In this document: positions 4,617 to 53,084 of the stretch, one piece after another
How the letters are laid out: every line of letters begins with the position of its first letter
Numbering within the stretch: position 1 is the stretch's first letter
Source of the DNA: Mugil cephalus
Lineage: Eukaryota; Chordata; Actinopteri; Mugiliformes; Mugilidae
Assembly (NCBI RefSeq): GCF_022458985.1
Contig: NC_061779.1
Location: 15,421,001 to 15,485,000, forward strand
DNA length: 64,000 nucleotides
Direction: 5' to 3'
Translations under genes and position numbers: made by a program
Notes under the pieces: model-generated
Told to the model about the DNA's origin: nothing
The model's database searches: none
The model's input: only the letters and a program-made list of their open reading frames with translations

Positions 4617-7600
4617 ATGCACTTTCTGACCTCCACCCCCATCCTTTTACTACAGCTGACTTTATTCGGCGCGCTGCACGGTGAGACATCTGAGGGATGT
4701 AAACTTTTGATGCACTTTGAAAGTTGTGTTAGATATTGGAGCCCTTCAGCGTTTGTCTGTCTTGAGCAGAAAGGATTCTTTAAGGCAGCTGTCTCCATCC
4801 ACCTGCACACGAGGATGAGGGTGACTTCAGTTCTGGACACTTGGCTTAGGCTCTTATTTTGCTTATCAAATGTACTTAACTTTACCGTTTAATATTTATT
4901 TAATGTACAGTGAGACAAAGTGTTCTCTTTTCGTTTCAGGTGCCAAATGGACTTACACTGGTAAGTCTGATAATGTTTTCCTCCCAGTTTATCAGTTGTA
5001 CATACATGGAGTCTTATATCTGTAAACTGTGTAGCTTTAGTTTTGGTGAAACAAGCTGATTTAGCTGAGTGAATTAAATTCCCTGCAAATGCAAATGCAA
5101 AAAAGAAAAAAAAAGAAAACAAAAGAAATGCTGCTCCTCCTGGTGACTTTTCTTGCTGCGAAAATTAGTACCTCGTCACCTCATGTGACTGTGAAGTTCA
5201 TCACTGACTCTAACACAACGTTTCATTTCAAGTGGTGGACTGCCTTAAGGTCTGAGGACAGGGACGCCCTGAACCGCGGACCTCTCTTATATAAACTGTG
5301 CTCACAGCATGACCCCTTGGCGTCGCGTCACTGCCTCTCAAATATCTGTTGCACTCAGGGACTTAATGTTAAAAAGTGAACGTAGGCTGGTGAAGCGGAG
5401 AAGTCTGGATGAAAATTAAGTTCTTGTTAGTAGAATCTCTGGTCCTGTTTCAAAGATAACTACATGGTATGGTAATTCTTCGTCTCTGGCACATTGTTCA
5501 AGATCTCTGCACAGCAATTTACGGTCAAATAATTATAGCCAGATGAAATTATACTTATGTTTAATTGAGACCAAAATTGAGACCTGAAGTGTTTTTATTA
5601 TAGCAGTGGCTTGGCATTAATAGGAGCAACTGGGCCTTTGTGGATTTTGTTCACACAATTGTTAATCACATACGTGCAGAAAACCGATACAACACCGAAA
5701 GGAAATTTATGTGATGCATCCAGTGCTGCATAAAGTACATAAACATTTGATTGTGAGCAGGACACATTAAATACTAACTAATGAAAATGAACAATGAAAT
5801 AATAATCACAAATCTTCCTGTAAGGATAATTCATTATGATAATATTTCACATAACTGGGATGGTTGAGGACATTTCTGAGGCGAGAGTTGATGTCACAAA
5901 AGAAAACCCCTCTGGGCTCCTCTTATTCCATCTTCCCTGTCATAATAGTGAGTAGTCTCTACGCCGGGTAGCACTATCTTTCTTTTGATGGGCCCATAGC
6001 CGAGTCATCTTCACCTCAACACTCCACCCTCTGGCTGAGAGTGAACCAAGAACCTTAACATGGGAAGAAAAATAAATGATACTTGTAGTTTCCCTACCCT
6101 CCACCGCGTGATGTTGAATATATTATTCACAGAGCGCCTCGTACACGTTGTCTAATTCGAGATTCTTTCTGCGTGTAAACGACCCGCATTAAAGAAATTA
6201 CCAACAGCCATTGATGTTCTGCCAAGGATTGCCAAGGGACCACTGAAGACCATTAAAGGTCCATTATTAAAGGATGGCCTGCGTCAAATTAAAACACAAA
6301 TCAAGTGGACAGTGAATAATTATAGCCATAAGAGTAACTGTCTTTCTTATTATAGAAGCCAAGTTTGGGCTTTGCGCTTTGCGCCAAACAAGTATTCAGC
6401 GATTTCGGCTTCACTTGATGCCTTTTGAGATGTCTTATACAATCAATCCACATTTGTCTGACAGTCAGGTTGGGGGGCAGGCTTCATGCTGCATCATTCA
6501 TCTTTAACCGCAGTCAGCTGGCACATGGTGAATGGTAAGCTTTTAGATGAATGTGGCTAAAGACCGTCCATTGAGAGGCTTTTACTGCACTTTCAGTTTT
6601 GTCACAATTTTGTCATTTCAGAATTGATACAGTCCATTCATTGCAAGCGGACAGCCTACTGGCCGTCATGTCTGAAAGCTCAGTGTGGGTTCTTACACTC
6701 TGATTGACACACTGAGTCTAAATATCAGAGGTTGACAGTTTCCTGATTTTCTTTTCCGTCGATTGCCCTCTTATTACATTGTTTTAAAGCCAACTGTTGC
6801 CTCATTGCCTTTGAAAATCACTGACGAACGTCCCTTTGCAGCCGAGGTCACTCTGTAAACCTCATGACACGATCTGCGAATGTGGGCATTTTTGGTGTCT
6901 TGTGCTTTACAGAAACCTCTCATTTGGAGAGAGACAACGTTCTCATTGGCTCTCCCTGTAAACAACAGCCTTGTTGTCACTCTCGCTGTTTTACAAAGGG
7001 CCGAGAGCAGTGCCAAAGGCCTCTCCCAGGCTGTCCTGTGCAATGATAATCATACATCTGTTTGATTATAGATAAAATGTTTAGTTGGCTAGAACAAGTC
7101 CTGGCCACTTTTGGAGCCATCTTCTATTCTAGGCTCACACTGGGATACATTTTGCTCATTTACATTTTAACATGAAGCATTTGAACATGTCTGTAGTTTT
7201 GGATAAGAGTATACTATGTGTAGAACCACTGCATAGTATATTATTGCCCATCATGTACATTTATGTTGTTGCAGGGGCAGAAGGAGAGCACCACTGGTCC
7301 AAGCATTATCCGTATTGTGGTGGCACTTATCAGTCTCCAATAGACATCACGCCAGATCTGCTGAGATTTGATCCAACGCTAAGTCCGATTGAGGTTCAAA
7401 ACTACAACCTGTCACCGACTGAGCAGCTCACTCTTGGAAATAACGGACACTCTGGTGAGTGTAAATCAGCGTTTCTAACCACAAAATTCAACGTGCGACA
7501 CACCATTTTCATTCCAGGTGACACAACTCTGTATCAAACCCAGCAAAGATTTAACAACGCCGCGTTTAGTGTGGCTTAGAATAGAGAAGTTCTTCAAATC

Positions 7601-10600
7601 AAAGCGATGCACTGGTCAATGTATTCATTAGAAATGGCCCCACATAAACATGGAGGCCTAATTTCTGGGTCAGCTTTAAGAAAATGATAGGAGGATTCTA
7701 CATATACCACAGCAATTTTCTATAATCACACTCTTATTATCTTTGCTGTTCTTTCTCCCAGAGAAAGGGCTCCATGTTTAGTCTGGGAAAATATGAGCAA
7801 AGACTATTCATCCACTACGTTTCTGCAGCAGCAAAGAAAACCAGTTTCAGTCAAATGTACTATATCTGCTTTATTTATAACAAAGCGTGAAATGCGCTAA
7901 ATGTAGGTACCAGACCGTAGACAACCAGACTCAAAGGCAAAAGTTATAAGCAGACGATAATGATTCTTCCACCAAACTGCGGTTTGCAATTTGAAGATGA
8001 CGACTCTGACATGTAATCTTGACGCGTTAGCATGATGTAGAAATTGCTGCTGAACATGCACATGATGGCCACGGAGTGTTGGTGACGATCACTGCTGCGA
8101 AATCTGTTTTGCCGATGACAAAGAGCACACGAATGCTTATGTGTGCACACCCGACGGGGCCCCATCACCGCAGGCCGGGTGGCATCATCAAGTGTGACGC
8201 GCGTTTGAAGCGAGCTGACATAGGTTTTCTCATGTGTAAGCATTCATCAGACACTGACGAACATGTCGCACCCTGCGTCACTCCCCCGTAAACTATCTTA
8301 AATCCAGCTGCACGGATGAGCGACTCGGGTTGAATGAAGTGGACATTTCTTGATCTCCCTCGTGTCACCTGAAGTTACTCTTTCCCCCCTTATGTGTGAT
8401 GGGATATTTTCGTTTTATTTCTTTTTATCCACAGTCCAAATATCATTGCCCTCCAAGATGCACATCTTGGGCCTGCCTCAGCGTTACACTGCAGCTCAGC
8501 TCCATTTCCACTGGGGCTCCTCCAGTCGGCCTGCAGGCTCTGAACACATGGTGAACAGTAAGCAGTATGCAGCAGAGGTAAACAACGCAAACAACACTTT
8601 TTACTGACTGATTTAAAAGGCGGTGGTGGAAAGCAGCTAAACCAATTCATGCTGTAATGATTTCACCACATGGATCAGTTGTAGTTAACAGCTAGTTTGC
8701 AGTTTGAGATTTTACAAATAAAACAGTATTGTCCACTTATGTGTTTATTGGTAATTGCATAGATCTAACATCTGCTGTGTTCATGACACATAAAATACTT
8801 GACGACTTTATGCACAAAAAACATTATAATAAAAATGGCTATTAAATCAAATTAAATGTTTGAGTTCATTTAAGTTCATCTGCGGCATCAGGTGACAGCA
8901 TCTCTGGCACCAGACAAATGACTTAGTAGTTTATGACCTAAACGTGTGGCATTTGACTGGCAGACGAATCGGAGACACAGACACCCTTCAAAGCTGACGT
9001 CGCTCAGGATGAAGAGACTCAGAATAGCTTTGCATCTGCATGTTGGCATGTTGACAGTTCTTTTTGTGCATCTCTCCCTTCGTTGTGCAGTCAGCTGTAA
9101 ATCACAGTTAATGTAATGAGTTAAATTTGAAAGCTGGAAACGAATCTTGCATTTTATCAATCAGATATCTTAGTTGCACGTAATTAAGGGAAGAAAAGGG
9201 ACATAAGTCAGTCTCAGTGTTTACGTTGTTCACATTACAGTATGTCAGCGTGTTAGTCCTGCGTGGTTTAAAGGATTACAGTGGCAGACTATTATATGCT
9301 CATCTTCTCAACCGCTTCTTGAAAGGAGTGTCTGTCTGCGCCATTTATTGTGTCAAGCCCTGTAAGCAGTTTTCACACAATTGTTGCACTTGAAGTAAAG
9401 CAGAGCACTTGACAGTAAAGCATAAATGTGATTGAGAATATGGGACTTTGATTTACGGTGACACTGAAATGGCTTCAACCTGTGTGCCCTTATTTTTTAC
9501 GTGACCGTGCCCCAGCTGCTGCAGCAGCACGGCCACATGTAAGGTGCTGTGGTTTGACCTGAGTTTCTGAGTGGACATGTCGAGAACATGCATCTTTTCA
9601 AGTCTCTCCAGGCTCCAGAACCACAGTTCCTTGATGACATGTTGTTCTTGAGGGATGGAATGATGGGAAGTTGAGGGTTTCCCAGAAGTAGTTCAAACGT
9701 GTACCTTGATTCCCATGAGAGAACAAAGCCCGTAAATACGATTGCATCATGTTTGGCGGGAATGGATGTTTTGGTGGATGCAAAAAGTCACGACCTAAGC
9801 AACCAACAGTCTCATTTACCTTCTGCACTAAACCATGGAGTATTTTTGAGGCACTGCGCTCGCAGGGCCCCAACAATTGCTTGGTTTGCCCGTTCTAGCA
9901 GCGCGTCCTTGACTGTTGTAAAGAAACACTTCTTACGCATTCAGTTTTGGATCATGATCTCGACATATTCCTCTTTGCATTTGCAGATGCACGTTGTTCA
10001 TTACAATTCAGACAAATACCCCAACATGTCGACAGCTGTGGATAAATCTGACGGCCTGGCTGTGCTGGGTGTCCTGATTGAGGTGAGTGATTTATTTAGT
10101 CTTTGTCTGTGAATCTGTTTTCATGGACTTGAACCAGCTACCTGTTTTTTCCTACACAGATTGGGGAGTTTAATCCAGCCTTTGAAGAATTTCTAAAGTT
10201 CATCAGTGGTATCAAGTTCAGGGGTGAGTCTAAAATAATGATTTCAGAAGTTGGGCTTTTTGCAGTTATGTGGTTGTTAAACAGCTGATTTCTGTTTCGC
10301 TGTCTCCGCCGTCAGATCAGAGAGTGCAGGTGCCTGGCTTCAACATCAGAGCTCTGCTGCCTGCGCGTTTGGATGAGTATTATCGCTACGATGGCTCGCT
10401 GACGACTCCTCCGTGCTACCCCAGCGTGCTGTGGACGGTGTTCAGGAATCACGTTACGATATCTCACAAACAGGTGCTTTAACACATTAAAAGACATTTC
10501 ACATTAGGTTTAATCGTTCGTCATTCACTCAACTGATGTGGATCTGTGTCTACAACTTGCTTTTGTTTGGTCATGTGTTTTCAGTTTCTGGCCTTAGCAA

Positions 10601-13600
10601 CAACCCTCTACTCCTCCCATGCCCAAGACTCAGCCCCTGTTCCACTGAACAGTAACTACAGGAAACCACAGCTCCCCGACAGCCGAGTTGTGCTGGTGTC
10701 GTTTAAGGAAGGTAAGTATGGTCTTGAAAATGGGCTTGCTTTATTGTTGGAGCATGAGTGACACGGTCACATGGACGGACTTAGCCGCTGCGCTGCTTTA
10801 ACAGTGGCTAAAAGACAGGTTTGGGTCGTTTGTACGCATTCACTCTTCACTCACGCTGTCTTTGGCTCGTATGGTATCACCTGCTTGCGGCTGAGCTTTT
10901 TTTGTTCATCATCCTTAAAGTTGATTGACCTTGATGAGCTTGTTCGAAAGTAGGCCATGTTTTAAGACCCATCAAATTAACCACCACTCTCACACACTGA
11001 GACCGTCTGCAGCCCTTAAATTTGTCTTTAAAAGCCCCACTTTTATGTGGTCGCCTGGTTTACCGCACTCTATGGTATTTAGGTCTGTATGGTGTGGTAT
11101 GAATGTGCATGTTTTCCCCATTTTCAGAGCTTCCCTCTCGGAGCTATGCTTTTCTAATGGCACATGTGCTGACATGGCGGCGTTGAATCCTACGCTGCTA
11201 GCTGTCTGGAGTGGCATTTAGCAGGTGATGGCTTGCGCTTTCAGTGTACCACCATGTTCACCGCTGTTGCATGCTGGGCGTGAAAGCCCAACGCCGTTTC
11301 AAGTATCCCATGTGCTGGGACGTTTAACAACACTGGCTCTGTGTCCGATGCAGGCAGAGGACTGCATGGTACTCTTACAGTCACACCTCCGTTCATGAGG
11401 AAGCGTGTCATTCAGCAGCTGCTGGTTGGCGACCTAGCAGACCTGGCTGACGAAGGCCTGTACCAGCTCCTTCCAAGTGGCTCGAAGAAGCTCCATGCTG
11501 GCAAGAAGAACGAGCAGACTGAGGCCCTGGCCAAGCCCAAACAACAAACGTTGAATGCGTCCCCTTGGAAGAAGAGCCAGACCAACCACCGTCATGTGGG
11601 AAAGTTTGGGCTGGCTGAAGACTCGCTGTGCTACGTCTCCTTGGAGCAGAGGGTTTTCCATCAGTTGAAACAGTCCCACGCTGAGAGCCAGCTGGTTCAG
11701 ACTCTCCGAGATACGGTTTTCCCTGAGCTCAACCTCAAGAGCTACCTGAGCTGTAAGTCAGACTTAGCTCTGCCCACTATCAGGCATATCCTCCGCGGGC
11801 GGCCGACTGATGAGGCCACCGAGTTGGATCGCTCTCTGACCAAAGCCTTGATGAATGAAAAGAAGACATCCACACCGGTGAAACACAACGTGCTGATGAC
11901 AGATTATCGTGGTCTTAACCCAGCGAGTGTTTCCAGGAAACCACACAGCCAGGGTTATCCACATCCTTGGCTTCTGCCAATGGAATGGGAAGACTAGAGA
12001 GATTCCAGGCATTTTATTATGACTTTGTGTAACAGACATCAGATGTGTGTCCTTCATTGAAAGGCTAATTTTCAAGCGGTGTCCTGAACTCTTTTAATCG
12101 GTCTTTGCGTAATGTATTTAATATTAAATTATTCTTTCCAGTATGTGCACATAATATAATCATTTTGATCATAAAAACGCTTCAGTAATAAAAAAAAAAT
12201 ACCCTAGTCATCACCAGTGACTGCGCTCAATACTGTTAATCAAACTGTATGTATATTTTTGTCATTCATCACGGCTTTGCATACTTTTTTTTTGTGTGTT
12301 GTTGTTAAATAAACTGCAACGAATCACAAATTTCTTGAGTGAATATCCATCCATAAAGCTTCATGAAGTACACTGTGTCTGACGGAGAACATTTATAGTG
12401 TTATTCGGGATGCCAAGTTCACTTCTATAGTATGGTAATTGTGGTGCTGTACTAGCAATTATTGTCTTACACAATGTAGAGATGTGGCTGAACCAAAAGA
12501 ATTTGCAAGAGCAGTACAATTTGTACTTCATATTCCCATTTACAATAAACAACCACTACTATACATAGGGAACGGCATCATGCTTGAGTCATACACGGCA
12601 GGTCACTCTCAGTTTATGTGACCGGAGCTATTTTTCTATAACATGTTGGTTCTTTACAGGCTCAAGGGAGGTTTGTACCTATCCTAGTATACTGGGGCAA
12701 AAAGAAGGAACTTATAGACACTGAACTTCTATATTTATATAGAAGAGTATGTAAAGCATGGAAGGTTTGGAGTGAAGTACATGTTGGAGGAGAGGAACGT
12801 TCAGTTTCAAACTACTGCAATGGTTTTCTTTCTGTCTTATTTTTATCCAGTCTTGTGTTTCTCTTATCTACAAGGGGAAAAACCGTAATTTAAATGAAAA
12901 GGATGCAAGTAAACTATGTCACAGATATATATGTGTCACAGGAAAATATGACCAGAGATGACATGGCGCTGCTTATATAACTGATATCATGTTAAATGAC
13001 GGTCCGAGAAGACTCCCTAACAGAGGGACTTTGAGATGACCTTTCTGCAACAACTAGGTCACCATATCTGCTTGTGTCATGAGAAGGTTTGCTACTTGTC
13101 CACACCCAGAAGGTCTGACTTCTGCATCATGGTTTTTTTTTCTGTCGTGATGCACATTTCCCTTTAACTCTTGGGGTGTCTGTTGAATTTTATCTTCTGT
13201 CTTTCTCTCTGTCACTCAGATGAAGTGTCTTGGATAAACACCGGTATGTGGCTTTTGTACATATTGTGATTCTGTACTCTTAGCTCACTCCTAATGCCGC
13301 ACTGAGGGATCCCAACTTTCCAGCACCTTATTTTTTGTGGGTGCACGAGTAAAATATTTCTTTACCCTTCGACGGTTCTGACTCTGCTAACTCTTTAATA
13401 GAGGAGTTAATAATATCACGTTTTAATGCTAATCAATTACCAAACTAAACCATAACTGCACTAAGATGGAATTTTGATAATAATGTTAGTATTTAACATA
13501 TCAGAAAACATGTTTTAATAAATACACGTATATCCACGTATGAAACTTTCAATTTAAAAAACACAGTGAAAATATTACATAAACCTTTGTGCCTCTCTTG

Positions 13601-14866
13601 CTTCATTTTCTGCAGGTTTACTGGTTCCTATACTGGTGATCGCTGCACTGGGATTTATTCTCACTGTCTCTTTAATATGCTGTCTATTAAGAAAAAAAAG
13701 GTAGGTAGAGGGCAACATAATAATGAAACAAGACTAACTGCACATAAAATCACATACGAGCTACTGTCATTTTCTGTGCCTTAAATTCCATCCAAGTCTT
13801 TATATGAGTCTGGACAGACACATATGTCAGCTACGAGTCGACTGAGAGGCTGACCACAGTCAGTCAACTCAATGATTTCAATCATAAACAAAAAGACTTG
13901 TCAGTGCTCTCAAATCATCCTTTTTGAAGATGTCTGTCCGTTTGAACTTTGAGTTAGGTTATTTCTGGAGAATGGTTATCCTTAATTGACCCGTACATCT
14001 GGGGTTTAGGAGTTGGTTTTATATGGGGTTGTGTCCTCATTAGATGGGGATTTTTTTAAATTTTTTTTTTTCTGGAAATGCCACCCTTCACAGAGTGACG
14101 CCACATAAATCATGAACCCATTTTGTGTAATTGTGGTTTTCTATAAACAACTAAGAGCGCCATGGAGAATATATCTTAGGTTTGCGTTACTGTTTGACTT
14201 GGGGGTTCATTGTGGTGCGTAATTAAGAACAATTAACTTTTTAATTTGGGAAGACGACCTTTGGAAGAAAATACTGGCACGTATCTAGCACTTATCGCTT
14301 GCTGTGTATTTACATAATGTCGGGTGGACAGATTCAGAACTACTTTTATGAATAGGGTGGTATTCGAAAATGATACAGTGATTTTGGTTTTAAGAGTTTA
14401 TATGAGCAACTACCGCAAAATCTGTCCTGGTTTCGCTGATGTATCTCTCCTAATCAGCTGACACAGTTTTGTTCCCTTCATTTCTTTGTTCTGATTATAT
14501 ACAGTCCACTTTTTGAAGGCATGAGACAGTCTATTCCTCTCAGTGGTAGGCTTTCTGCATTGAATATCCACCTCCCCACTTATTGCCAAACACCAACATC
14601 AGCAAATCTACTGTCTATCGTTAATCTCTTTAGTAACAACAGTGAGGAACTGGAGTGGAAAAGAAAACTAACAACTTCCCCAGAAAATAAAGAAATCCTT
14701 AGTTTTAATGCCCCATATCACATGACATCTTTCTCCTAAATCATGGAAATGGCGTGTATTTACATGAATGCGCAATTGTATTTTTAGATGTGCTGCTGAG
14801 CAAGACAAAAGCAGACATGATGGATACAACATTGGAGACAAAGATGAGTACGGCTCAAGAGTATAG
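4617..14866 (+). CDS. ca12: Carbonic anhydrase 12-like, extracellular and membrane-anchored
   Basis: Converts CO2 and water to bicarbonate and a proton outside the cell. Coding exons of the membrane form: 4617-4680, 4940-4960, 7275-7454, 8435-8577, 9987-10082, 10160-10223, 10316-10473, 10585-10711, 13220-13243, 13616-13700 and 14788-14866, giving 346 aa with consistent phases. Exon 1 is a signal peptide ([13 protein letters not shown]). The catalytic set is intact: zinc His in QLHFHWG and EMHVVH, the His64 proton shuttle in NNGHS, Glu106 in SEHMV, and Thr199 in LTTPPC. The extracellular-type cysteine pair is present (YCGG and PPCY). Exon 10 encodes the transmembrane helix ([17 protein letters not shown]), followed by an LLRKKR stop-transfer sequence and a short tail ending EYGSRV. 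ca12 is preferred to ca14 because all neighbours map to human chromosome 15. A polyadenylation signal lies at 16040-16045. An alternative last exon is listed separately. Confidence 0.9.
11354..11997 (+). CDS. ca12: Candidate alternative last exon of ca12: 214-residue soluble C-terminus
   Basis: A 644-base open stretch starts right after an AG acceptor (gatgcag) and ends in TAG. Exon 8 ends in phase 1 (KE + G) and this frame continues without a break (G, then [13 protein letters not shown]). Splicing 10711 to 11354 would give a 498-residue protein without the transmembrane exon. A polyadenylation signal follows at 12308-12313 (another AATAAA at 12187-12192), as expected for a terminal exon. 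The sequence is Lys/Leu/Ser-rich, has no hydrophobic segment and ends [12 protein letters not shown] do not recognise the domain. The alternative, a chance ORF, is made less likely by its length, its exact phase match and the downstream signal. The acceptor's pyrimidine tract is weak. Confidence 0.6.
12308..12313 (+). other. Polyadenylation signal for the soluble ca12 isoform
   Basis: AATAAA, 311 bases after the stop of the alternative last exon and well before the transmembrane exon. Confidence 0.5.
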
Positions 14867-24014: not shown

Positions 24015-26579
24015 TTATTTGCCGTCTTTTCTGGTCACCCTCCCGTTTCGCTTCTGTGGACCTGCAACAAGGACAACCAGGAGATGAAAATTCTGTTTTC
24101 AAGATTTCCCATCAGTGCCATTCAGTAGATCAGAAAAGCCCTTTTTATTTTCAAACAAGAAAACGCCACAAGACCTGCAGTTGGCTCGCCACTGCTGCTC
24201 TTCCTCCTGCATGCTTTAGATCTCGTTTCTCGCTGCGGTGTGCTCATTTCTCGGGCCTTTTCAGCCTTTCTTCTCTTTGATCCGGTTTCCTTCCGATTTG
24301 CAGTCTTTTCTTTCTGTGGCGTTTTGGCCACACGTTCCTCTTTGATCAGTCTTTTCTTTACAGTGTTTTCAGAGCGGCTTCTGGCCACCTGACGGAAATC
24401 AAGCTGGAGTTAGAGCTACAGCTGCAGAGTTCACTACTGGTCATGCAAGAAGGGATGATATTCACCTTTTTCTTGTCTGTGTAATCATGGTCCTCCTCCT
24501 TCTTTACTCTCTTTTTTGCTTTGGGTGACTTTGAATCTTCAAAAGAGAAAAGAAAGAAGTCAGATTCTGAGGTATATTTTGACTGAATCGCTCACTTCCA
24601 AGCACACTGTGGTATTTCTTACTTTTTGGAGCCATGGGGCCTGGATCTCCCTAGAATCAGAACATGTGACATTAGTGACAGTGACTTATAAGTCCTTAAA
24701 TAAATAATTAAGTGTTTTTCCTTCAACTCACTCTGAACCACACAGTTCTGCCGTTGTGATCCCGGAGAGACTTCATCCCATCCACGTAGTAACACTGCAG
24801 CCATGCCTCAAAGGCAGAGTAGTCCGCCTTCTCCGGATCGTAGCCCTTTCCACCTAAGACCACACAATGTGTTGGAAAACAGGATGCCTCGACATAAAAG
24901 TTGACCTAATCTTTGACAACCCACCCATTTTCACAACCTCCAGAGGTACTGTATGGCAGAGTCTGAGCAGGTCATCAGCCTCCTGTTTCACCGCTTTTCC
25001 TTTCTTTATTTGTGGGGTTGTCTGGGCGGAATACAAGGCTAAACTGTTAGAAAAGTGCAAAGCAGTTGGGCTTGAGTGGGAAAAAAAATAAGAATGTTTT
25101 TCTGTCACCTTTGTGTCTGCAGTTTCATTTTTCACAGGCTTCATATTGTCGCATAAATCTTCTGTGGTAAGACCTTCGAGTACATCTCTGGCAGGCACAA
25201 AGGGTGGAATGTTTAATCTTTAAAAAAAAACAAAAAAAACATCAAGGTCTATTCTTTCATGAAACAGAGGCTCTTGTTCTCAAATTGTGTGAATCATTAT
25301 GTCTTCCCACACAAGACTTACAGTAGGCCATTCATATCATATATCTGCAAGACAATCATGAGAGATGATAAATCTTGGCACAAGTATTTTGTCAAAGCAA
25401 AACACCCAGAAAGAGAAACTTACAGAAGAATGTAAGTTTTTACTGGCTCTCTGGTCTGACCTTAATTCAAGAGGGATCATATCATAATTGAGCAGCGTGG
25501 CTCCTCTTGTTGCTTAATTGTAGCTTTTTGTTTGGGACGATTATTAATCAAGATCTGTTTGGCCTTGTTTTGTGTACGTGCCTCCGCCCTATTTTCTGTA
25601 GCCAGCAATCTAGCACAATAACACAAGCGCACAGTAGCCAAAGAACGCATAAACAGGAACGCTTGTGGTCTCTCTCTAAATTAAAGGATGTTGTGCAGTT
25701 AATTACATTACGGATGTAACTTGAGCCATGTGCCGACATGGAGAATCAATCTTCTTCGGTCTTTGCTGAACTCGCTGAAACCTGCTGTCACCATTCGTAG
25801 AAACAATTAGTTTGAAAGGTAATCTACAGAAGTTAATCACAACATGGCGTCTAATCCCCTTAATAAAGCCTGTGTGCATGCCCATTGTCGATATGGATCT
25901 CAATATGTCTTAGTGCATCACCTGAATAGGATTTCCGCCCTCAGGTAGTTCCCAATTCCGTTGAAGTACTTTTGATTGAGCAGAACTTCACAGATGGGTC
26001 TGTCAAAGGCCCGGTCGGACAGGTGTGACACAACGTTCTCCCTGCAAAGGTTTTTGACTCATCAGTGCGACAGTGATTCTTTAGTCAAGCAGATGACACA
26101 CAGGACGCTTTCGGCACAACTGACCTGAAGCTTTTGTACTCAAACATGATGCAGGGCCCTCTGTCAGCCTGCCACGTCCCATTGGGGTGCCAGCTGCCAA
26201 ACCTGCGTGCATCCACAAAGCTCAGCACTCTGCAGGGATTCTCTTTGGAAAAGAAGCGCAGATGGGCGTGCTTGGGCAACTCATCCTCTGCGGTGAAGCG
26301 GAAAAAGCCTGACATCCCGAAGCGAAAGACTATATCCATGGGCTCCACTGCTTGCCCTGCTTTCACTCTCTGTTTCGGATCATCACTCTTCATGGGCGTC
26401 AGCGTGAGCTTCACTTCCTTCCCTCTGGAAGTGGCTGTGATAATATATGCGTCACAGGTGAAGGGCACATCTGGGTTCTTGCTGACCTCGGACTTTCTGA
26501 CTGGTCCGGTGAACACCACGCCCTCACACATTTTGTTCACAAACAGGCTAGCCAGGTGCAGTTCTGGACCCTCAGGCAT
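24015..26579 (-). CDS. neil1: Endonuclease VIII-like 1 DNA glycosylase
   Basis: Removes oxidised bases in base-excision repair, in the nucleus. Nine coding exons on the minus strand: 26579-26125, 26041-25922, 25217-25109, 25003-24925, 24853-24732, 24650-24623, 24536-24466, 24388-24175 and 24061-24015. The product is 414 aa (human 390). The N-terminus MPEGPELHLASLFVNKM supplies the catalytic Pro2 and Glu3. SRGKEVKL holds the conserved Lys; RFGMSGFF, DARRFGSW and NGIGNYLRAEILFR (helix-two-turn-helix) follow. The zincless-finger region is GRTVWFRGDPGP. Lys257 in GGKGY matches human Lys242, the RNA-edited residue. The C-terminus is long, basic and low-complexity, as in vertebrate NEIL1. The last exon (GPQKRNGRVTRKDGK) is inferred from phase and splice sites. 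Upstream of the ATG there is a polypyrimidine tract and AG acceptor, so a 5' untranslated exon is expected. Confidence 0.94.
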
Positions 26580-26609
26580 TTTAGCTGGAACTATCTAAGC
26601 TGTATTGCA

Positions 26610-50460: not shown

Positions 50461-51584
50461 CTATCTGCCACTTGAGGCTCTCCCCGCTCGGAGTCCTAGC
50501 AGATTGCAAGTCCGCTTGCAGAGGCCCTGCATCCTGTTTATGCAAAAAAAATGCACATAGTCCTGCCTGTGTGTTAGATTGCCTTGGAGATTGTCTAATT
50601 GGTGCCTTAAGAAATTTTGCGTTGTTTATATTTGTGTGTTTGTCTTCCTCGCTTTTTATAAACATGAAATGACACCAATTACTCTGACTTCCTTCAGCAA
50701 GGAAGCAAGCCCCAAGTCTGCTTTGATTGGCTGGGAATTCTTCTTCTTATGTTACAAACTGCAGATTATAATGGAACACAATAATCCAGGCATGTCATGT
50801 TTGTTACCCAACCCTGTGGTTGCTATGTTAAGCCACTTCAGACATTAATATTTATTTTTACACACAACAATGACATAACGGTATGTAAGTGGGTATGTGG
50901 GATTTTCTTTCCAGTCACGCATTGTTGACCAAATACCACATCAGTTTTAATTTGTTTTTTTTTTTATTTTTACAGTCACACCATGGATTTTCCAGTTGAG
51001 AAAGAGGCAGCACTGCAGGCTATTATTTATTTTCGGTACATGTGTCTCTCGCCTTGTGCATCTTTAATGCAGATTATTAGTCTGAGGTTAAACTGAAGCT
51101 AACACAACACCTGACCTCACTGCTGATACGACATCTGACCTCACTGCTTGTATAACACCCGACGTGGCAGCTAATTTTCTGCTGTGGTTAAGCTGCAGTT
51201 CACATGGACTGTAAATATGCAGACAGAAGTTGTGATCCGGGTGGAGGTAAACATGTTTTTTCATTGTTGTGATTCCTGGAATGTGGTTGTTTAGTCTGGA
51301 AGTCATTTCTGGTACCTCCCTGTTTAATTAAATCCAAGGAATTCTGCTACTACTACGACTGACGGTTTGTCCAAGGCTCATACTACATTACGAAATCACT
51401 TAACTATGAAACCGGATGGTGCCACCCTAGAGTAGCCACAATTTACTGGTACGGTGACGAAGCGTCTGGTGAACTGTTTCCTTGTATGACTAAACTTTAA
51501 TTGGTCTTATCATGTAGCTCCATGTTTGTCTGTTGTGCTTTGTAATGACAGGAATAGGGACAAAAGAATAATCTATATATATAT

Positions 51585-51870
51585 ATAAATATCAGAACAC
51601 TGACAAGGACAAGTACGAAAAGTAGCTGCTCCAAGGTTTCTCATGTGGGTTTTCAAAGATCCAAGTTTGATTAGTTCCTTTAACTTTAAAGTTTTCTGCA
51701 GGGAGTTCCAAATAGCAGGTGCAGAGTACTTAAAACAATGTTTACCAAATACAGAATGAGATTTTGGCATGTTTAATAATAACAAGTCTTTGGAATGTAA
51801 ACAGTAATTGCTTTGGGTTTTTGAGATGTTATTGCATAAGTAATCGGAGAGTACTCTAAGATAGTACATT
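51585..51870 (-). pseudogene. LINE ORF2 C-terminal remnant
   Basis: The minus strand reads DLLLLNMPKSHSVFGKHCFK, then YSAPAIWNSLQK and a KLGSLKTHMRNL end. This matches the usual end of fish LINE reverse-transcriptase ORFs (a 'F...AP..WNSLP...FK..LK.HL' pattern). It is 5' truncated. Confidence 0.6.
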
Positions 51871-53084
51871 ACATTTTCATTATTAATGAAAATATGCCAA
51901 TGTGTAAGGCGACGTGCTGCCAGAGACGGCCACTGAACTCGAGCGTATAAAGTGCAGTGATGAGTGAGGGCTTTGAAATCCGTGATGAATCTTAGGGCAC
52001 CAACACTGAAAGAAAAGGAAGCAAAACCTCATACTGTCAAAAATGTTGTTGTGCATAAGTTAATAAATCAACTAATAAATAAAAATCATCTTTGTCCCCA
52101 ATGAAATGTCTGCAGTTTTCATTTAATGAACGCAATTTCCGCTGAACACACTTTTTGTAGTGTAGTTCTATGTGAATAATTAATTTTCCCTGATGCTCTG
52201 TCTCCTACGTTTCCGCTTGGTGGGGCACAGCCAAGATGGCCCTGGCCTGTAGTGTTGTGGACCGGTGAACAGCTGGGCGTGAATGCGTGTGTACAGCACA
52301 CACTTCAATTATCCTTAGCTTGTGTTAGTAATATACCGTCCCTTATTCACATTTATACATTCATTGCATGATGAACAGAGTTGTCTACCTGGTTAGTGTG
52401 AGATTCAGAACTTACCACTTGAGCAGAAGTCAGAGATAAAAGATTTGGGACCCCATCGACCAGAGGATCTTATCATGTCTCAAGAAGGAAAATATAAAAC
52501 TAGGTCATTCAACCAGGAGTGGTTGAAGCAGAAAACTTGGTTAACCTGGGAGTTCTGTGCAACTTGGTGAGTCTAATTTATTTTTCATCTATACGGAAAT
52601 GATGATGTATTTTGCACTCACAGAGCTGTCCACCTGTCTGTGGTGCTGAAATGACTGTTTGGTTGTGGTACATTGTGTGTGGTGACTTTGTATATTGATT
52701 AATGTGTATTGGATGTGCACTGTTTACGCCATGAGCTGTGCATTGTGTTTTTAATGTTGTCACATTATAGTTTTGATGTTGAATATCTGATATAGTGAGA
52801 TCTTGAACAGCGCCATTTGCTGGCGCTTTGATATGATGATGTATGTCTTCAGATTGGCACAGTGGTGTCGTGTGGTCCGGCTTCGAGTCTGACTCTGGCC
52901 TTTCTCTGTGGAGTTTGCATGTTGCATGGGTTTACTCAGGCTACTGTGTTTTTGTTGTGAGGGTATTGATTATCTATTTTCCTGCATGACCCCAACAGAA
53001 ATTTGTCTTAGAAAAGGGTATAGTTTCCGGTGTAGACTCTGCCTGCCAACTTGGTCCCCTGGTATCAGTGTTAAAAAGAGGAGG

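Follow-up and report, generated by a model that had tools for sequence, protein, structure and literature searches.

The described systems closest to the one considered here, a candidate alternative last exon of almost certain gag origin in intron 8 of the carbonic anhydrase gene ca12 of Mugil cephalus, are the LAP2alpha isoform of TMPO and ZNF451-L2a. In these isoforms, a captured retroelement gag supplies a single large exon that is used as an alternative last exon and carries a polyadenylation signal of its own (Abascal et al. 2015, PMC4495291, in the part of the paper drawn on here). The same part of that paper traces them to ORF1 (open reading frame 1) of a DIRS1-like element, provides peptide evidence and reports ratios of non-synonymous to synonymous substitution rates (dN/dS) of 0.38 and 0.16; in TMPO, the gag exon takes the place of the portion that contains the transmembrane region (PMC4495291). 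The ca12 locus lies in the window C10:15421001-15485000, by which the whole analysed stretch of 64,000 nucleotides is meant, and the coordinates given below are positions in this window. It resembles LAP2alpha and ZNF451-L2a in having a gag-derived candidate last exon, which here, as in TMPO, would replace the part with the membrane anchor. It differs from them in that the exon would stem from a Ty3/gypsy-type Gag, in that the host gene encodes an ectoenzyme, and in being known here from sequence alone.

The domesticated capsid genes of mammals originated in the capsid part of Metaviridae Gag, according to the part of the published account used here (PMC11011659). The ca12 fragment appears to have this origin in common with them. 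Domesticated metaviral capsid genes of mammals are mostly free-standing, whereas the ca12 fragment is located inside another gene, in phase with its host. Another point of comparison is the fish CA VI-pentraxin, which carries an extra C-terminal domain, gained, in the view of its authors, when an exon of a transmembrane ancestor was replaced, and forms a pentamer, presumably via that domain (PMC5723433, in the part consulted). It provides the precedent named in an earlier note on this DNA, namely that of a secreted carbonic anhydrase with an additional C-terminal domain. The predicted ca12 form would likewise consist of a carbonic anhydrase and an added C-terminal domain; however, both the paralogue and the domain are different, and CA VI-pentraxin has been demonstrated as a protein, whereas the ca12 form is predicted from DNA. 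A single-library search, covering mostly titles and the beginnings of abstracts, included no published account of a gag-derived ca12 exon or of a teleost ca12 splice variant among the matches listed.

It is proposed that a Ty3/gypsy-type long terminal repeat (LTR) retrotransposon was inserted long ago into intron 8 of ca12, and that the remnant is a part of gag comprising a capsid-region segment and flanking residues. A splice acceptor and polyadenylation signals would have been acquired by this piece or brought along with it, and the piece would have been kept as an alternative last exon. The use of the fragment as a last exon of ca12 is assigned a rough probability of 0.43. The proposal in its fullest form, in which a Ty3/gypsy capsid fragment serves as a regulated alternative last exon converting ca12 into a secreted, capsid-domain-oligomerised enzyme, independently of LAP2alpha and CA VI-pentraxin and in parallel to them, appears doubtful.

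Gag homology of the intron 8 frame

Intron 8 of ca12 (10712-13219) contains an open frame of 237 codons (11284-11997). As was found by a tblastn search of the genome (634.8 Mb, 24 contigs), residues 91-195 of the 236 encoded by the frame match a Gag protein of contig C4 with 35% identity over 105 residues (E 6.4e-8). The C4 protein was the one significant relative in this search, and a permissive limit added a match on C5 (E 0.002). The reverse search with the C4 Gag yielded 32 places, some of which are pieces of one copy, and recovered the window frame with E 9.7e-8. A profile of seven relatives, built without the window frame, was aligned to the frame by hhalign over 90 columns with 94% probability (E 1.4e-7). 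Taken together, the genomic tblastn search, the local tblastn placement, hhalign and a profile hidden Markov model (HMM) define a Gag segment of about 105 residues with secure homology at 11557..11868 on the forward strand. Judging by its position in Gag, this segment would correspond to the N-terminal part of the capsid.

A chance resemblance of an unrelated frame to Gag would be consistent with the extent of the secure alignment, which covers only about half of the residues. However, the forward and reverse searches concur, and the profile HMM assigned 33.8 bits to the frame against 8.4 bits for the best of 2000 shuffles, so that this explanation is already disfavoured and seems very improbable. 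When the profile HMM was applied to 1706 segments of the window, the frame alone was found among the 12 best. On the strength of these comparisons, the derivation of the intron 8 piece from Gag is almost certain. The earlier note had described the encoded part as a basic domain that could not be recognised; its basic character stands (isoelectric point 9.5), but about half of it derives from a retrotransposon Gag. Searches with the frame itself gave nothing in Pfam (0 families) or among PDB sequences, and the Gag identity emerged from the genomic tblastn search and the profiles.

The Pfam search of the seven relatives returned unrelated weak names only (best E 0.016), and Pfam therefore seems to have no model for this Gag. 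The comparison of the seven-relative profile with PDB gave 12 weak matches up to E 10; the best two are CCHC-type proteins (E 0.098 and 0.31), retroviral nucleocapsids match the zinc-knuckle part with E 3.7-5.5, and the other matches are unrelated. Scans with the frame of the viral and prokaryotic collections viral_contigs, genome_contigs and phages revealed no relative, and neither did a scan of viral_contigs with a Gag relative.

Two of the relatives were checked for pol. On C4, the gag is followed, about 3-5 kb downstream and on the same strand, by an RNase H domain and then an integrase, which by their order and strand probably belong to the same element. On C1, the gag is followed by a frame that runs without a stop over all of the 3 kb retrieved (1000 codons) and contains a reverse transcriptase and then RNase H. 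Since retroviruses share the order of pol domains, Ty3/gypsy (Metaviridae) is the likelier, and not the only, family name for the source element. The C1 Gag copy carries a C-terminal motif that we take to be a CCHC zinc knuckle. The places recovered by the reverse search include four frames of 587 codons; together with two further loci, these share 96.9-99.7% identity with one another. Near-identical gag frames of 581-587 codons are present on C1, C5, C19 and C11; these copies seem to represent a young family of LTR elements, with a Gag seemingly lacking a Pfam model.

Genomic isolation and coding signature

A DNA search of the 635 Mb genome, in which simple repeats and very frequent words are passed over, revealed no further copy of intron 8, and a blastn comparison of the exon with the fetched gag loci gave no match longer than 16 bases. 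The comparison of the window with pieces of Gag, the protease region, reverse transcriptase, RNase H and integrase gave nothing better than E 0.8 outside the frame, and no LTR-like long repeat pair was detected in 10700-13300. With no similar DNA elsewhere, no pol in the window and no LTR-like repeat pair, the locus bears no sign of recent insertion. The isolation of the fragment, as well as its divergence from the relatives, suggests an old, undated insertion. A stretch of 24 bases in intron 8 outside the exon (10981-11004) matches several gag copies at 91.7% (E 0.005) and is taken for a chance match in a CA-rich stretch. An origin as a processed retrocopy, prompted by an A-run at 12187, was considered and set aside, the only flanking direct-repeat pair (11139/12623, 19 bases, 79%), one of four direct-repeat families listed, not adjoining the A-run. 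Rfam and tandem-repeat scans gave nothing.

The results of shuffling, the codon-position composition and the protein homology agree in supporting a coding role, present or past, of the stretch. Frames of at least 237 codons arose in none of 2000 dinucleotide-shuffled versions of intron 8 and in 5 of 2000 versions of the GC-rich (guanine and cytosine) stretch 11100-12100 shuffled in the same way. The GC content of the frame by codon position is 0.587/0.399/0.629, and that of the rest of intron 8 is 0.40. The contrast between codon positions corresponds to a z value of 4.6 relative to shuffles; among the 126,722 positions of the window, both strands counted, 36 are at least as high, the top-listed place being the same stretch read antisense. 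At fourfold sites, G or C was found at 58 of 104 in the frame and at 87 of 165 in ca12, and the share in three gag relatives is 0.40-0.44. The strong coding signature and the host-like composition of fourfold sites, considered with the lack of both a second intron 8 copy and any pol trace, suggest that the frame has probably been retained as coding sequence, and it is probably still coding.

The same data bear on the possibility that the stretch is a non-functional gag relic, in which one frame has been kept by recency or luck, and the phase match and AATAAA are coincidental. Such a relic would agree with the finding that 17 of the 32 places of the reverse search, the query and the window frame counted, have no stop in the matched stretch, and with in-phase AGs and AATAAA not being rare near the frame. 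If values are assumed for the transition bias and the indel ratios, the probability that the frame survives intact can be estimated analytically at 0.23-0.38 after 0.02 neutral substitutions per site. However, this probability declines to 0.025-0.09 at 0.05 and to 0.0006-0.008, i.e. below 1%, at 0.1 substitutions per site, an argument for retention that depends on the insertion being old. The genomic isolation described above and a third-position GC content well above that of both the intron and the gag relatives also speak against a relic, which is regarded as unlikely.

The candidate last exon and its predicted product

The host gene comprises 11 exons with AG/GT junctions throughout, which together form a single open frame encoding 346 residues. 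The closest solved structure is CA XII (340 bits, residues 23-283), followed by CA14 with 283 bits, and on this comparison the gene is CA12, as had been assumed earlier. Exons 1-8, located on the forward strand at 4617-4680, 4940-4960, 7275-7454, 8435-8577, 9987-10082, 10160-10223, 10316-10473 and 10585-10711, encode a signal peptide, predicted by its position, and the carbonic anhydrase domain matching CA XII (4617..10711). Exons 9-11 on the same strand (13220-13243, 13616-13700 and 14788-14866) encode a transmembrane anchor, recognised by eye, and a cytoplasmic tail; ca12 has both this anchor and a domain closest to CA XII. Exon 8 ends just past the catalytic domain at 10711, in phase 1, with the donor GTAAGT, and the candidate exon is located between the exons of the catalytic domain and those of the anchor.

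The coding part of the candidate alternative last exon (11354..11997, forward strand) includes 644 bases with the stop TAG at 11995-11997, and encodes 213 residues after the shared Gly codon. Its phase matches that of exon 8, and the joined product has 498 residues. The AG before 11354, the length of the open frame, the phase match and the AATAAA that follows, all claimed in the earlier note, hold on recheck. The candidate acceptor AG (11352..11353, forward strand) scored 6.6 with an approximate scoring matrix, ranking 8th among the 151 intron 8 AGs that were scored and falling inside the range of ten real ca12 acceptors (3.0-13.4). Candidate polyadenylation signals AATAAA are found on the forward strand at 12187 and 12308 (12187..12313), with a third one at 12544, and ATTAAA is present at 12123; as many as three AATAAA within 1222 bases past the stop arise in 9 of 500 shuffles. 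An in-phase acceptor and a downstream polyadenylation signal, as in last exons of the LAP2alpha type, are present at the chance levels stated here and below.

Splicing from 10711 to 11354 would skip exons 9-11 and replace the anchor and the tail with about 213 basic, soluble residues. The product would be a 498-residue secreted CA12 with a signal peptide, the catalytic domain and a Gag-derived C-terminus. The 213 residues include two cysteines; their highest 19-residue hydropathy is 0.69, and a transmembrane-like stretch is absent. Capsid domains self-associate in Gag, which makes oligomerisation a natural guess, and the capsid-derived part may serve as an oligomerisation module, by analogy with the presumed role of the pentraxin domain in fish CA VI. 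If the exon is used, it would represent a further gag-derived alternative last exon that swaps an anchor for a soluble module, from a retroelement class other than that of LAP2alpha, and a second route to a secreted multidomain carbonic anhydrase in fish. A retroelement Gag domain would then act outside the cell as a fused module of an ectoenzyme.

Besides the survival of the frame expected at 0.02 neutral substitutions per site, several observations weigh against such an exon. A higher-scoring AG (10.2) is located upstream, at 11128. Three of the six AG-defined starts in 11284-11397 are in phase with exon 8, so an in-phase acceptor corresponds to chance expectation and is weak evidence alone; a first AATAAA at most 311 bases past the stop is unremarkable, as 94 of 500 shuffles also have one. 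Both the phase match and the AATAAA, presented in the earlier note as evidence for the exon, are therefore present but carry less weight than was attributed to them. The GC content of third positions drops to 0.49 over the last 53 codons of the frame. Outside the secure segment, a stretch that may be left over from the Gag N-terminal domain (11395..11475, forward strand) shows a similarity equalled in 31-35 of 2000 shuffles, and the whole frame reaches 0.7 bits with the Gag N-terminal profile, below the score of this stretch. In the C-terminal tail (11860..11994, forward strand), the likeness to the Gag major homology region does not rise above noise, 85 of 2000 shuffles being as good. With such weak homology at both ends, a secure origin can be assigned to only about half of the 213 residues. 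Furthermore, a capsid domain, normally cytoplasmic, is unusual in the secretory pathway. The frame contains no zinc knuckle, ending before it, and the major homology region is not supported; thus, the frame represents a truncated piece and not a full Gag.

The beginning of the frame is also where a separate gene could start. Intron 8 might harbour a nested, Gag-derived host gene that has the same orientation as ca12 but is driven by a promoter of its own and shares no protein with ca12; its product would begin either at ATG 11395 (about 200 residues) or in an exon farther upstream that is spliced to 11354. Such a gene would fit the mostly free-standing nature of domesticated capsid genes. This ATG is the first one in frame and approximately coincides with the start of the weak N-terminal Gag similarity, but its context is poor (T at -3, A at +4), and the frame is open for 37 codons upstream of it with no further ATG there. 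A nested gene thus seems rather unlikely, and if the frame is coding, the alternative last exon of ca12 is somewhat the likelier of the two.

Another possible exon of 97 bases in intron 8 (11128-11224) is outlined by a strong acceptor-like AG and, by eye, a CAG/GTGATG donor-like site. If joined to ca12, it would read into a stop, also judged by eye.

Other features of the window

A frame of 151 codons on the reverse strand (51576-52028) looks, by eye, like the end of the open reading frame of a long interspersed nuclear element (LINE) reverse transcriptase; its only Pfam match is Colipase-like and below the cut-off. Upstream of ca12, two frames on the reverse strand (1084-2167) resemble, by eye, Kunitz inhibitor domains, perhaps of a SPINT-like membrane protein. 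An exon of a DNA glycosylase was also detected on the reverse strand at 26088-26594 by its match to the Pfam family Fapy_DNA_glyco (E 3e-14), and by eye it appears to be NEIL1-like.
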